From: Anaeramoeba flamelloides
Taxonomy: Eukaryota; Metamonada; Anaeramoebidae
Length of the DNA stretch: 64,000 bases
Direction of reading: 5' to 3'
NCBI GenBank assembly: GCA_027625915.1
Contig: JANTQA010000012.1
Span: 1,085,001-1,149,000 of the forward strand
Each line of letters starts with the position of its first letter. Position 1 is the first letter of the stretch. The position numbers were made by a program, and so were the translations under genes. The notes below the pieces were generated by a model. That model made no database searches and was not told the DNA's origin. It worked only from the letters and a program-made list of their open reading frames with translations. Below, in pieces: positions 6,417 through 61,460 of this stretch.

Positions 6417-6893
6417 TTAGTTTTTTTTTTTTCCTTTTCCTTTTTTTTTACCTTTTCCTTTTTTTTTACCTTTCCCTTTTCCTTTTCCTTTTCCTTTACC
6501 TTTACCCTTTCCTTTTTTTTTCCCCTTACTCTTCTTTGTGTTTCTCCTTTTTCTTTTTCCTTTCCCCTTAAATTCTTCTCTTTCATCTTCATCCAAAACA
6601 AAATGTTGTTTGGTTTGGTATACACACTCGTCTTCTACCAAGTCTGCAAGTGTCCTATTAAAATAGTGTCTCCATACTTTTGAAACTTCCCAGTTTTCTT
6701 GGATATAATTAACAATTGCTGGTCTTGATAAACCTTTTTTGCTTCTTGTTGTGCAAAGTGCCTTATAGATCATGACTTTATAGGTTGGGTTTTTTACTAC
6801 TTTTTTTGTTCTTCTTCTTTTTCTGGTTTTTTTTGCTTGAACTTCACTGCTTGAAGAGGAGGAGTTGTCAGAGCTTGATTCGGATGAACTCAT
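6417..6893 (-). CDS. linker histone H1/H5-like protein with winged-helix domain, 158 aa
   Basis: The ATG at 6891-6893 opens a 158-codon frame ending in TAA. Order of parts: a Ser/Glu/Asp-rich start (residues 1-19), a basic patch (20-35), a winged-helix H15-type globular domain (about 35-101, beginning PTYKVMIYKAL and ending with the wing YQTKQHFVL), an acidic hinge (101-108), and an extremely basic tail (109-158) made almost only of Gly and Lys in GKGK/KKKGK units. This is the architecture of eukaryotic linker histones, which bind nucleosome entry/exit DNA and compact chromatin. The tail lacks the Ala/Pro residues usual in animal H1. The gene is intronless as read. A DNA-binding winged-helix protein other than H1 is the main alternative. 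The polypurine-rich tail coding region is repetitive and could vary in length. Confidence 0.8.
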   Translation of the reverse strand: MSSSESSSDNSSSSSSEVQAKKTRKRRRTKKVVKNPTYKVMIYKALCTTRSKKGLSRPAIVNYIQENWEVSKVWRHYFNRTLADLVEDECVYQTKQHFVLDEDEREEFKGKGKRKRRNTKKSKGKKKGKGKGKGKGKGKGKGKKKGKGKKKGKGKKKN

Positions 6894-52501: not shown

Positions 52502-54576
52502 TTTCTATTTATTTATTTGATCTTTTTTTGTGATCATTCTAAGTTGAAATTATAATCCTAAATAAAAGAGATATTGAAGTATAAAAAAAAATCAAGTGAT
52601 GAGTAACCCTTTTTCATTTTTTTTTTCCTAAAAGGTGATGGGGTACTTATTCATCCAAAGTTTACAATTAAATTTGAAAATCGGACTTATTTCTCAACTT
52701 TAGAGAAATGAGTTATATAATTTTTAGACGGGGTTTATTTTTCTCAATGACAATTCAGTAAAAAGTTCGGATAAGTTCTGTTTGGAATTTTTGGATTGAT
52801 TTATATAAAGAAAAAATTGCAAAACATTTTTATTTTTATTGAAATGTCACTTTTAGTTTTTCTGGTAGTTTACATTAACCAATAACATTTCAAATCCAAT
52901 GTTATTATAAAAACATCAATAAAAATAAATCAAATATTGATTCCTTGAAGATCCTCAGAAAAAAATGATCTTTCAGTTTATCTACAAATATTTATTAAAT
53001 TTCTTGGAATGGAAATGATAAAATAATGTTTTAATATACTATCCAGAGTATAAAAAACAACTTAGAATTATCAAAATCAGTTATTTGTAAATATCTATTA
53101 ATTTTATTTTTTATTATTATTTATTTATTCTAATTAGTTTTATTTGTATAACAATCATTTAAAAAATTGAAATATAATTATAAAATCTATTGATACTTTT
53201 TATCCTTGGGGGGGGTTATTAACTTCCTGAAAAAATCGAGATTGGCCTATTAATTATTGATGATAAATAATCAATTTAAAAGTGGTTCATGGGGTTCTTA
53301 GTTGAATTTTGTACTTTTTTTAAATTTGCAGTTTGAGAAATTTTTTTAATGTAATGGTTTGGTTCTTTTTCAAAGATTTTTTGTTCAAAAAGAAAAAAAT
53401 GATTTGAACTGTTCTTTGAATAAATTAATAATATTTTTTTTTAATTAAAATAATTGAAATAATTTTTATTGAATTTGATTGTATTTTTTATTAACTGGGT
53501 AGTGAGATTCCAAACTTGGTTGTTTCATTTTTAAAGTGTATTTCTACACACTTCCTTTGAAAAGAAATTTGATTTCTTTCTTCTTTTCAATAAAAATAAT
53601 TGTTATTCGAAATATTTCAGAAATATTTTGGATTTTGAACTTTTGAAAAAATAGGATAAAATGATCAAACTTTACTCTTTTTTAAAGCAACCCAAAACAG
53701 GACAACAATAATAACAGCAAATTAAAAATATGGTTTCTTGTTGTTTCAAAAAAAAAAGGTAAGAGTTATCAGAAGTTTTTCTCGTTTTCTATTTAATATT
53801 TTGAAATCCAAAGGAAATTCCAGATAACTCTTTGGTTTTGTATGGTCTTTTGAAAAAATAACTATGGAAAGGTCAGTAAAATTTCATAAAAAAATTCGTT
53901 AATAATATTTACCCAAATTACCCAAAATAAGTGATTTCACCTTTTCATTCCTTTTCTACTTTCAAAGAGTATTTTCAAATTACGATCTAATTCTCTGGAA
54001 ACTCAATTTTGTAAAAGAAAAATAGGTAAAATAAACTCAAAATTTTTCCCATTTCTTATTCAAATTAAAATATTTCAAAAAATAGCAAAATTTACTACAA
54101 CCTTTTCTCTTTGTAAATTGAAACAAATGGTATGATTATAAAAGTTTTTGATTTTGAAGTTTCAAGAAATATCGAAAAAAAGAAAATTTTTATTAACGAA
54201 TTTTGGTAATGTAATAATATTATCTGAAATGATGATCATTAAAAAAGGTAAAATTGTATCGGTGTATGTGTTTTTTATTGGGTACAAAAGGTTTAATGTT
54301 CATAAATTAAGAATTAATTAAATTAAGAGAGAAAAAGAAAAACTAAAAATAATCCAATATTTTTACGATTTTATTTTCATTTTTTTATTATTTTTTAATT
54401 TTCCTCTCAAAAATTATAATTGAATAATTCCCAAAATAGAGCTTATTTCATAAATAAATTACATGTTGTAAATTTAAAAAACAAATATCATGATATCTTG
54501 TTCATTTTTTTTTAATATAATTTAAAAAATTTTTTTTAGTATTAACCAACCACAATTGCAATAAAACAATTAAAAA
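52502..54576. other. 2-kb region upstream of the H3 fusion gene
   Basis: It carries an inverted copy of dispersed family H (about 52850-53480) and A/T-rich sequence. The ~200 nt before the H3-fusion ATG show a T-rich block then ACCAACCACAATTGCAATAA close to the start. No classical TATA or histone-type element was identified with confidence. Confidence 0.45.
52850..53480. repeat. dispersed repeat family H, copy 4 (inverted)
   Basis: Reverse-complement relative of about 17500-18130. Examples are ATTGATTCCTTGAAGATCCT against the AGATCTTCAAGG block, and GGCCTATTAATTATTGATGA against the AATTAATAACC block. Confidence 0.5.
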
Positions 54577-55485
54577 ATGGCAAGAACAAAACGAGCATCA
54601 TCATCCTCTATTAAAAACAGAAAAACCAAAGGCAAAAAGAAACTAAGAACTGCCGGAAAGTTAAGAAGAACAAAATCGACAACAAAGGCCCTGCGTGAGA
54701 TCAAAAACTTGCAAAAATCAACAAACCTCTTAATCCCGAAAGCAAGCTTCTTTAGATCTGTTCGCTCAATTGCACTTAACATCAAGCCAGGACTTCGGTT
54801 TCAATCAGCAGCTGTTATGGCATTACAGGAAGCCACTGAAACATTTATCGTTGGTGTACTCAACTTGGCCAATTTAGCCGCGATCCATACACGAAGGGTA
54901 ACACTTATGGACAAAGACTTGAGGCTAGTCACTCAAATTAAACACCTTCACGTACCACAGGTCGCAATTGGAGACCAAGGATCCGGTCTTACCTTTTTAC
55001 CTACACTTACAAGAACACCATCTCTTCCACTTCAAAATTCATGTGAAGACTGCAGAGTAGTTGGAGGGTTATTTAACACGGTTCGCGAAATGAGGAAGTA
55101 TACTCTCTTAGATCTTCCAGCTCAGAGTTTCAATTGGAACACACACGAACAAAAAATTGTGAAGGACTACCTGAAAAAGATGAACATTACAATGGACGAA
55201 CTTTATCACAGTTGCATCCAAGATGTGACTGACAAGAAGTTTACCAAAAAGGAAATGCCAAAATATCATTGGATTAATAAACATTCCCAAATTTGCACTA
55301 AATGTTGGCCAACTGTTTTCTCTGAATTGCTTTATGCATGGAGATCAAAAATCCCAAAACACCACCTTCCAAAAGATGTTACAGACAGGATCGACTGTTG
55401 GTATGGGAGAAATTGTAGAACACAAAAACACAATTTACTACATGCACAGAATCTGAATCATGTTTGTGAACAAACTCGTTGGTAA
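54577..55485 (+). CDS. histone H3 variant fused to CHFR-type cysteine-rich/PBZ domain, 302 aa
   Basis: One uninterrupted ATG-to-TAA frame. Residues 1-125 are a histone H3: start MARTK (K4 kept), basic tail, KALREIKNLQKSTNLLI (alpha-N), LRFQSAAVMALQEATETFIV (alpha-2) and HTRRVTLMDKDLRLVTQIK (loop 2/alpha-3). The usual K9/S10 and K14 context is lost; the tail reads RASSSSIKNRK. Loop 1 is not lengthened, so this is not a clear CENP-A. Residues about 126-155 are a linker. Residues 156-302 match the C-terminal cysteine-rich domain of the mitotic checkpoint ubiquitin ligase CHFR: C156xxC159, a helical part, C240xxC243, and a closing PAR-binding zinc finger, DCWYGRNCRTQ (C274, C280), HAQNLNH (H289, H295), then VCEQTR. 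CHFR's FHA and RING domains are absent. The CHFR finger binds poly(ADP-ribose). A nucleosomal protein carrying a PAR reader is inferred; spacing in the finger differs slightly from human CHFR. Confidence 0.93.
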   Translation: MARTKRASSSSIKNRKTKGKKKLRTAGKLRRTKSTTKALREIKNLQKSTNLLIPKASFFRSVRSIALNIKPGLRFQSAAVMALQEATETFIVGVLNLANLAAIHTRRVTLMDKDLRLVTQIKHLHVPQVAIGDQGSGLTFLPTLTRTPSLPLQNSCEDCRVVGGLFNTVREMRKYTLLDLPAQSFNWNTHEQKIVKDYLKKMNITMDELYHSCIQDVTDKKFTKKEMPKYHWINKHSQICTKCWPTVFSELLYAWRSKIPKHHLPKDVTDRIDCWYGRNCRTQKHNLLHAQNLNHVCEQTRW

Positions 55486-57599
55486 AAAAGTTTTGTAATT
55501 ATTATATTTTTTTAAATTCTTGTTTTTGTTTATAGCAATTTTTTTATAATTCTTCTTTGGTTAAAATATAGTGATTTTTTTTCAAAAAACAAACAAAAAA
55601 ATAAATATAATGTTTTTATTTTATTTTTAGAGCCTTTTTAATTATTTGATTTTTTTTTTTATTTTTTTATTGTATTGCCCTTGTTTAGGTAATAATTTAA
55701 CTTCAGTAAAAAAAAAGAAAAAAAATGAGAACAAAAGAAAAAAGAAAAATGATCAGATTTAAATTTTAAATGGGAGATTGATATTTGGAAAGATTTGTTA
55801 AATGATTTTTAAGTATATAGATAAGGGACTAGTCTCTATTATTTTGTTTTTTGACCAATTTCTCACTAAAGATTCTTAATCTAGAAATAAGCTTAAAATT
55901 GAAAATAAACAGGGTTTTCAAATCTAAGGAATGGGAAAAAAATTTTTTAAATCTCGATTAAATTTAGGTAAAACAATTTAATAGTGTTTATTCCCTTAAT
56001 AGAGCCTGGAAAGGAATAATAAGAGTAGTTAATGAAAGAATAAATAAATAAATAAAGAGGAAATAAATGAATCAAGCCAATAATAGCTTTTATAAAGAAC
56101 CTTTCGAAAAGGGTTTTTAATTTTAATTTGATCATTCTGTCATTCAAAATTTCTTCAAAAAATTGAATTTTTTAGAGATCTCCAAAACCACTTATCAGAT
56201 TTTGATTAAAAAGAAGATCGAAATGGAATTTGTAAATTTGATGAATAATAATATAAGGGATTATTATTTGAAGTTAATTATTTTTTATTTTTAAATAGAT
56301 TTTACCTTTCATTGGTATTATTTTTCCCAATTAAAAAGCACGCTCGACTTTTTTTCTTGTTTGTCTTTTTTTCTCAAATGGAAAAACAGAATTGGTGAAC
56401 TTGGTTTTAGAAAACGATGATCAAAAAAACAAGTACCGAAAGGATATAATTGGTGTTTCAAAACAAGAAAACCCTTGCCCTTTTTTCTTCAGGTTCCAAA
56501 TTAACATCTAATTCGCTACTTAATAGTATACCCTTGTTAAAATCATTTTTGAAGGTAAAATCCTTGATATTTTCAGCAAAAATTTAAATTTCTTTTAATC
56601 ATTTTTTTCATAATATGTCCTTAATAAAATTAAGCACTATTTTTTCCTGATTAATATTTTTCGAAATCTAAGTTTCATACTTAATTCAATTAACCACTGG
56701 GATAATTTTTTTTAGAATAAAAACACTCAAAACTTTTGAATATCGAAAATATTTTTTGAAATTACTGGGCACTTTTTTATTTTTTTTTGAAAAATTGGGT
56801 TTGAGAAAAGTTTGAAATCAAAGGATAAGTTAATATATTAAATTAGAATGCTTTTCCAGAAAGTTTATCCTTTTTAGTTTAACTTTTTTTTTATTTTACC
56901 ATTTAAAACTAAAAAAAACATTTGAAGACCAAATTAGTGCCTTTTGTGAAAAGAAAATTCCCCATAGTTTAGAATTTGTTTTTGTAATTGAGTTTAAACA
57001 AGATAGTGTATCTAAAAATATACATAATTTCAAGTTTGAATTCAATGATTTTGGCAAAAAATGTTTTCAAGAAAAAGCTAAATTGAAACTTTATTTATTT
57101 TTATTTTATCATTTTGTTTTTTTAATTGTATTAATGGAAAGTATTTGATCAGTTTTCCATTTTTAGTGTTTTTTGGGTCGTAGGGACATATTCTATATTT
57201 ATTTCTATTTTTTTGTATTTGTAAAAAAATTCCAACACATATTAGCTTTATTTTTTGAGATAAAAAGTTTCCTTATTAGATACTTCATTTAGAGAATTTC
57301 GATTTAAATAGTAGAACTTTAAGAAATCCATAACCTTATTTACTTTATGTTTTTAAAGTTCGTTTCTTTGATTATTTAATGTATAGGGTTTTTAGAAAAA
57401 ATAAACACACGATTTATTTTGAAACCTAGATTAATCTTTTCTGTATATATTAATTTGACAATCTCAGAGCAATTACGAGAAGAAACCAATAGACTTCAAA
57501 TAATAATTCATTATATTTTTATGAGTTGAATTAACAAATAATAGTTTGTTTCTTCTATATGATTAACATTAAATAGAATAAGTTTTTTGATACTGTGTA

Positions 57600-59392: not shown

Positions 59393-61460
59393 TTAATTTA
59401 AATCTAATGAACTAATCGAAGCAGAATCCGAACTTTCATCACTTACTTCTGTCAAAGAACTCTCGTTTTCAAAATTAAGAGCAAATGCTTGTTTTAAATT
59501 TAAGGTTAATTTCGAGTCAAAATTATTTGAAGTTTCTGATCCTAAGATTGGAATCTCTGGAAGTTGGTAGTGCTTTTGGTTTGGAGAATAAATATTTTCT
59601 TTTGGGTCAATATTGTCATCAAATGAATCTTCCTCATTTTCCACTATTGTTTTCTTTTTTTCCTTTCTCGTTCCCCCCTCTTCACCCCCACCCCTTTCTT
59701 TTTCCTTTTCTTTTTCCTTTTCGTTCTCTTCCCCATTTAAATTTAAATTTATTAGTTTTTTGTCAATTTTTTGAGATGCCTTTCTTGGCTTATTTTTTTG
59801 TTTTTTATTTGACATTTTTTCATTTTCTTTTTCATTTGAAATGGATTCCAAATCTGAGTTTTGTTCAACATTTTGGTAGACACCGAGCATTTTTGGATCA
59901 AATAATGTTACGGAAGTAGCATAAGTATTTTTGCACATTATCTCAAAAATCAAATTTGTATTTAAAAAGCCATAGAATTTGGTTTTTTCAAATTCCTTCC
60001 CGATAATGTCACCGCCATGCACTATAGGGCGAGTATTTTGCCCCAATATGCCCTTTATCTCTTTAAATTTCATAAATGGTGTGATGCAGCATTGCTCCTT
60101 TTTAAGAGATTGCACTTTAATTTGATAATTGCATCTTTCATATTGGTTATAATCAATGGAAGAAGGATAATTTGTATGTAAAATGATTTTTTTCACACTA
60201 TGCTCCTCACCATCAAACATAATGTCTATTCCTAAATGGAAATAATTAAAAAAATAGTCAGGATTAATCTGGTTTGACCCAGAATCTTCCAAATTCGAAG
60301 TTGAATCTGTTTCTGGATCAGAATTAAACTCGTACTGATCATTTTGGTTGTTTCTCAAATTATCTAAATTTTCATCGTCACTGATCGTTTTTTCTTTCTC
60401 TTTTTCTTTTTCAATTTCTTCCTCTTTTTCTTTTTCTTTTTCTTTTTCTTTTTCATGATTTTTACTTATTTTGTTTTTGTTCGTAGATTCCTCTCCATTA
60501 AGATTTTTATTCTTATTTAGGTTGACATTTGGATTGTTTGTTAACTCGAAAATATCTTTAAATTCGTTTTCAGGATTCTTTTCAATTTCGTTATTCACAC
60601 CCTTGATGTAGATATTTTGTGGAGAGCTAATTTCTGCTAAAACGTCTTGTGTCGAATCACCAAATTTGATCCACTTGCTTGTTTTTGAAAAGAAAATACC
60701 TTTTTCCAAAATGACATCAACTTGTTGGAAATATTCACATTTCTCATTTATACTTGGCAGTTTTGCTTTGTCAAAACTTGTGCCAGCATAAATAAAGCAA
60801 TGACTCGCGACCAAATCGTTTTTTAATCGTAATAATTTGGGATCCTGCTCTTCCATTTGATCTAGCAGCTTTTTGCTTTCGTCGTCAATGGGGAAAACAA
60901 AGACTAAACCCCGATAATAGTGCACATAAAAGTCGTTATTTTGACTATAATTCCCAGGGAATGAGGCACCTATAACCCGAAGAATATGATCAAACGAAGG
61001 CTCTCTTTTCGGGCTCCCTAAGACACTCTTTTGATAATAAACTGTTAAAAATTCAAAACTTGCCTCGATCAGTTTGAGTCTTTGCTCCAGAGAACAAAAA
61101 TGAAGCTTGATACCGAGATCAAGAAGGTTCACTATCGTGTTTCTGTTTAAAGGATCCTGTTCGTCATATACTAAATCAACCTTTCCTATTTTTTCATGAT
61201 ATTTTTGTAACATTCTGATTGTAGACGACAAACTTGTTCCTGATCGATTGAAAATTATTTTTTTTTTATCAGTATAAATTTTTATTTTTTTTTTGTTTGT
61301 TTTTATTTTTTTTTTGAAACAGATCACATCAATTTAGAAGTATTCTTGGAGAGTAGGAATAGTTTTGAGCGATCACAAAATATTAATCAAAAGAAATAAT
61401 TAATTACAAACCAAGTTTAAAAGGACCAAGACTTTTTCCAGGTATAAGTGTTACTTTCAT
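59393..61460 (-). CDS. PHAF1 (C16orf70/UPF0183) homologue, two exons, 631 aa
   Basis: Exon 1 is 61460-61412 (ATG at 61458-61460) and exon 2 61239-59393 (TAA). The 172-nt GT-AG intron begins GTTTGT. The splice supplies MKVTLIPGKSLGPFKLG, matching the PHAF1 family start, in place of the lysine-rich unspliced read-through that has only a GTG start. The conserved body includes MLQKYHEKI, VYDEQDPLNR, FGDSTQDVL (209-217) and YFFNYFHLGIDIMFD (345-359) followed by VKKIILHTNYP. In animals PHAF1 pairs with BCAS3, a PROPPIN-like protein, at phagophores in autophagy; the same role here is inference. Odd features are a charged, Glu/Lys-rich insert (about 232-342) inside the conserved region and a 160-residue acidic/Lys-rich C-terminal extension, making it half again as long as the ~420-residue human protein. 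Confidence 0.86.

Follow-up and report, generated by a model that had tools for sequence, protein, structure and literature searches.

To our knowledge, core histones that carry an additional folded domain are rare, macroH2A being the well-known case. MacroH2A1.1, a core histone with a C-terminal reader of ADP-ribose or poly(ADP-ribose) (PAR), senses PARP1 activation (available text of PMC9404506); this reader is a macrodomain carried on H2A, which recognizes the terminal ADP-ribose unit, while the PBZ zinc finger recognizes neighbouring units (available text of PMC4030884). A PBZ finger is found together with a cysteine-rich domain (CRD) at the C-terminus of the E3 ubiquitin ligase CHFR. PBZ fingers are also joined to chromatin or repair factors in APLF and in Dictyostelium Ku70, the latter providing the precedent for fusion to a repair protein (available text of PMC5087659).

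On balance, we favour the view that A. flamelloides, a species of the metamonad genus Anaeramoeba, has a further arrangement of this kind, an H3 variant with a C-terminal CHFR-type PAR reader. It resembles macroH2A1.1 in being a core histone with a candidate reader at the C-terminus, but it uses H3 as the histone and CRD–PBZ zinc modules as the candidate reader. Its C-terminal CRD and PBZ are homologous to those of CHFR, but H3 takes the place of the FHA domain, the RING domain and the first part of the CRD, and it differs from Ku70 and APLF in that their host proteins are not histones. No H3–PBZ or H3–CHFR fusion was found described in the mostly open-access literature searched. This agrees with a preliminary description of the locus, which knew of no such fusion, although the databases already contain the proteins, labelled 'histone H3.1'.

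The gene was analysed within a window of 64,000 nucleotides (C13:1085001–1149000), and the genome searched comprises 254,072,379 bases in 76 contigs. The window also holds a linker-histone (H1/H5) domain with a KGKG-rich tail (6417–6893, minus strand) and, at 59393–61327 on the minus strand, a member of the PHAF1 (phagosome assembly factor 1) family in which charged repeats occur (4.1e-76). The fusion gene occupies 54577..55485 on the plus strand, as do all of its parts given below. It is a single intronless open frame of 302 codons plus TAA, starting with ATG at 54577 and free of internal stops up to the TAA that ends at 55485, just as had been described; copies of the same size are present on contigs C1 and C48. 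The profile search that had been suggested as a check returned all three expected domains above their Pfam cut-offs, namely Histone (residues 14–121, E = 2.9e-25), zf-CRD (residues 168–259, E = 1.4e-15) and zf-CCHH/PBZ (PF10283; residues 271–295, 23.2 bits against a cut-off of 22.7). The reported C-terminal CEQTR is present, but the true end of the protein is CEQTRW.

The N-terminal tail (54577..54672; pLDDT 33–44) keeps the MARTK start noted previously (R2, T3 and K4) and lacks an RKS (K9/K27-type) site. Because these sites are absent from the tail, the variant may escape control by K9/K27 methylation. The tail is followed by an H3-type histone fold (54673..54948) with the canonical helices (αN, 33–47; α1, 55–69; α2, 77–104; α3, 112–124), for which the PDB sequence match is the H3 of nucleosomes (3e-25). 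The H3 half is identical to canonical H3 (database protein P0010) at 51 of 92 residues. Across 29 positions that we take to contact DNA, H4 or the second H3 (H3–H3'), 19 are identical; R49, K56, K64, R69, R72, K79, R83, H113, R116, T118, D123 and L126 are kept, and the ten changed positions are Y41, R42, R52, R53, R63, E105, D106, C110, K115 and R129. A tree was built from 26 rows, with 16 identical sequences merged and L036 and L038 left out. In it the fusion groups with its nearest H3 relatives, a three-gene H3 variant also found in this genome (L008, L010 and L013; 92/89), and both lie among the canonical H3 genes of Anaeramoeba (91/100); the program warned that long branches meet at this place. 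A distinct group (98/96), weakly joined to plant CENH3 (80/61), is made up of eleven genes whose loop 1 is longer. Its place in the canonical Anaeramoeba group makes a native but derived form of H3 the most likely identity of the H3 half, rather than CENP-A. No macrodomain was matched in the fusion by Pfam and its histone matches are to H3, which speaks against a macroH2A identity.

The H3 complement of the genome is varied. Canonical H3 here is about 181 residues long, with a tail lengthened by KGQ/KGT/KGR-type repeats (L014 and its relatives L011 and L015–L030); L014 (1–3327) has 21 KG[QTRAE] triplets. The canonical copies are numerous and near-identical, with 17 loci sharing an identical fold. 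The three genes L008, L010 and L013 have a KG-rich tail and a C-terminal extension, DLPLLSESAPWNN. The 11 longer-loop-1 genes (L037 and L039–L048) make up a large CENP-A-like family, most members of which have long serine-rich and basic tails. L036 and L038 are H3-like stretches with changed conserved sites that look like decaying copies; the open frame of L038 has no Met ahead of the fold.

The CHFR half begins with a shortened CRD (residues 151–262; 55027..55362). The CHFR-type CRD of the preliminary description is present (58.4 bits against a cut-off of 26.3) but partial: only about the C-terminal 60% of the profile is matched (positions 64–158 of 158), so that the beginning of the domain and the additional cysteines located there are absent. 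PDB sequence matches of the C-terminal part are to CHFR (2xoc, 5.3e-16; 2xp0, 6.1e-16), and human CHFR CRD is the best structural match of the modelled C-terminal half, the best 50 rows of the Foldseek search having H3-containing entries and CHFR coming first on re-alignment of the top 1000. The fusion retains both of the CxxC pairs that had been pointed out, C156/C159 (55042..55053) and C240/C243 (55294..55305), which are invariant in all ten aligned proteins, three of them fusions; conservation marks these four cysteines as putative zinc ligands. In Pfam searches of the fusion, neither RING nor, at E values up to 10, FHA was matched, as had been claimed; five CHFR paralogs of the genome score 47–52 bits for FHA. 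Lacking both domains, the fusion is not itself a CHFR.

The PBZ finger (residues 271–297, with C274, C280, H289 and H295; 55387..55467) exceeds the PF10283 cut-off in all three copies (23.2, 23.2 and 23.1 bits). Scores elsewhere are 21.2–21.6 bits in L033, L005, L034, P0055 (tarsier) and P0056, and Pfam listed no PBZ match for L006 and L009 (limit E 0.01) or L035 (limit E 1). Set against the consensus C-x-[FY]-G-xx-C ... H-xxx-[FY]-x-H given in the available text of PMC4030884, the finger agrees in the basic residue, both cysteines, the first aromatic residue, the glycine and both histidines. It departs from it in having L293 for the second aromatic F/Y, a spacing longer by one residue, and Thr-Gln in place of two basic residues. 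Of the CxYGxxC...H...H finger of the preliminary description, the Cys, Gly and His residues are in place and the Pfam cut-off is exceeded narrowly, with these departures at the second aromatic position and in the spacing. The longer spacing is common to all five FHA-bearing CHFR paralogs, the leucine to four of the six CHFR-like paralogs and the Thr-Gln to all ten aligned proteins, tarsier CHFR included.

The fusion protein, searched against the genome in six frames, gave 62 matches, the counts for large families being lower bounds. Intact full-length fusions number three, one each on C13 (the window), C1 (94%) and C48 (78%). Counted as genes, they make up three of the 53 H3-type matches. The other matches are 50 of H3 type without a CRD and nine with a CRD only, at eight places. 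For 34 of the 50 the DNA was inspected, 21 loci from this search and another 13, and the remaining 16 were judged by their open frames, which at 183–201 amino acids are too short for H3 plus CRD–PBZ. The C13 and C1 copies share a stretch of about 2 kb (54037..56044, 83.6% by blastn), which is a segmental copy. The C13 and C48 proteins, the most divergent pair, align over 302 of 302 residues with no gaps, linker included, and their DNA similarity spans 54576–55498, almost exactly the bounds of the open frame; three more short DNA matches, of 179, 217 and 96 bases, occur at other places and all involve the opposite strand of C48.

Among proteins in the databases, P0002 differs from the window copy by one residue (V161I) and sits on a contig of 1,031,593 bases distinct from the three that bear the copies; it probably stands for another assembly, and the available text of PMC11550330 reports on BUSSELTON2 and SCHOONER1, two strains of A. 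flamelloides. A second full-length relative, P0003, is labelled 'histone H3.1 [Anaeramoeba flamelloides]'. These two were the only full-length relatives, and none came from beyond A. flamelloides, in two protein searches with P0001 (53 and three hits), which required shared exact words, were limited in sequence size and say nothing of A. ignava. The third hit of the smaller list was tarsier CHFR, and in the remaining hits of the larger search similarity was confined to the histone part. When an A. flamelloides CHFR served as the query, the single hit again came from A. flamelloides. The larger P0001 search also turned up P0013, a predicted protein of a fish that combines domains of linker and core histones.

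Selection was assessed with a simple test, dN/dS by the Nei–Gojobori method (NG86) on the three copies. Whole-gene ratios are 0.076 (C13/C1), 0.228 (C13/C48) and 0.212 (C1/C48). Divided by part, the C13/C48 pair gives 0.28 for the tail, 0.18 for the H3 fold, 2.76 for the linker, 0.24 for the CRD and 0.02 for the PBZ. Constraint is strongest in the PBZ region (residues 263–302) in all three pairs, with ratios of 0–0.03. The CRD and the PBZ are each under purifying selection in C13/C1 (p 1.1e-9 and p 0.0013, respectively) and in C13/C48 (p 8.9e-6 and p 1.8e-11). The linker (residues 125–150; 54949..55026) is fast-evolving, with 42% identity between C13 and C48 against 78% overall, and residues 121–150 have pLDDT values of 26–38; its C13/C48 ratio is not significant (p 0.094; 3.3 synonymous changes) and its C13/C1 ratio is 0.12 (p 0.00058). 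Whole-gene dS among the copies is 0.37–0.61, and the fusion is therefore no recent accident. Chance is excluded by the three full-length copies, the indel-free alignment of all 302 residues, purifying selection on both halves and the existence of P0002. Taken together, the three copies, the Pfam domains, the dN/dS ratios and a DNA similarity that ends with the open frame show that H3 and the CHFR-type domain are joined in one frame, as claimed, in a real, selected fusion that is neither two genes nor an artefact.

The genome contains six CHFR-like genes. Five of these (L033/L004, L005, L006, L034/L007 and L035/L012) have FHA, RING and a full CRD, and CHFR-type proteins therefore remain in the genome. 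The sixth, L009 (C26), is a 333-residue open frame with RING, a short CRD and a CHFR-type finger; it shares with the fusion the same shortened CRD beginning NSCxxC, but has RING where the fusion has H3. In tracing the donor of the CRD–PBZ, two trees, in which long branches meet, did not single out any CHFR-like protein of the genome as nearest, and a clade of the fusion and L009 is neither rejected nor demonstrated by the AU test (p 0.441). As the trees and the AU test leave both possible, the short CRD of the two may reflect common descent or convergence. Two further CHFR-like stretches (L049 and L050) have stop codons inside their CRD–PBZ matches. The PARP catalytic family gave 18 matches in the genome, 17 of them above the cut-off. 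L059 has the PARP1 set of two zf-PARP stretches, PADR1, BRCT, WGR, regulatory and catalytic domains, and L060–L062 have WGR, regulatory and catalytic domains. Because of this PARP1-type domain set and the PARP catalytic family, PAR can probably be made in the A. flamelloides cell.

The kept residues of the H3 fold, a PBZ that scores above that of a vertebrate CHFR and a PARP1-type writer make the fusion compatible with both nucleosome membership and PAR binding. In the mechanism that we propose, the H3 half would pair with H4 and enter nucleosomes, or H3–H4 dimers awaiting deposition, and the flexible linker would let the CRD–PBZ project past the H3 C-terminus. The PBZ would then grip the PAR that PARP1/2-type enzymes produce at breaks or during mitosis, and the variant H3 would stay on PAR-marked chromatin, or be brought to it, with no need for a separate adaptor. 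A homotypic variant nucleosome, with its two H3 molecules, would present a pair of PBZ fingers and would gain avidity as APLF does with its tandem PBZ. Each PBZ by itself binds two adenines that are neighbours, and the tandem fingers of APLF raise affinity more than 1000-fold (available text of PMC4030884), and because of this effect of tandem fingers the two in a nucleosome could, by analogy, act together.

Several other explanations were weighed. The fusion could be mainly a soluble H3–H4 dimer that is pulled by PAR to damage and deposited there as a repair mark, in effect an APLF-like combination of PAR reader and histone chaperone folded into the histone itself. This reading, which we regard as possible though rather unlikely, fits the architecture and the selection data of the fusions equally well. 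It accords with 6yn1, by its entry title a solved structure of the PBZ protein APLF with H3–H4 (in our structural search merely another H3 match), and with the small share of fusions among H3-type matches, a measure of gene number that is silent on expression. Sequence cannot discriminate between standing chromatin (macroH2A-like) and delivery to PAR (APLF-like), and so does not separate this alternative from the best explanation. That the CRD–PBZ has lost its reading of PAR and instead caps H3, either structurally or as a binding site for proteins, for example in a mitotic or silencing complex, is improbable. The leucine at the second aromatic position, the spacing changed by one residue and the loss of part of the CRD would suit such a cap; against it, in every pair of copies constraint is strongest on the PBZ, which also outscores the CHFR fingers tested, and the longer spacing and the leucine recur in the FHA-bearing and CHFR-like paralogs, respectively, themselves candidate PAR binders.

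CHFR acts in mitosis, and this, with the divergence of the H3 half, might suggest a centromeric H3 of the CENP-A type with a fused checkpoint domain. Such an identity is highly improbable and was rejected, as the loop-1 insertion is absent and the fusion lies beside the three-gene variant in the canonical Anaeramoeba group, apart from the longer-loop-1 genes. The chance that the fusion is an artefact, whether of misassembly, of two adjacent genes or of an unseen intron where the halves meet, is close to negligible. The linker is indeed the least conserved of all parts, but the fusion recurs on three contigs of the genome and on the distinct contig of P0002, and the C13/C48 alignment runs across the linker without a gap. 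Moreover, the GC content of the linker (0.46 in the window and C1 copies, 0.32 on C48, against 0.19–0.20 in the window flanks) is unlike that of the introns of the sister species A. ignava, which are 91.86% A+T (PMC11550330).

By analogy, the best reading is that the fusion would work like macroH2A1.1, but on H3 and with an unrelated reader. We are evenly divided on the fuller proposal that it is an independent, H3-based counterpart of macroH2A in a metamonad protist, with two CHFR-type readers per nucleosome and bivalent PAR binding. If true, this would be a second, unrelated invention of a PAR-sensing nucleosome, so that such direct wiring would have evolved more than once, and it would link PAR signalling to H3–H4 inheritance. 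The fusion would also be a natural tool for studying the role of a PAR-binding nucleosome and whether H3, in its native organism, tolerates a folded domain at the C-terminus. The sequence data suggest that the chromatin of A. flamelloides could by itself sense the DNA-damage signal PAR.
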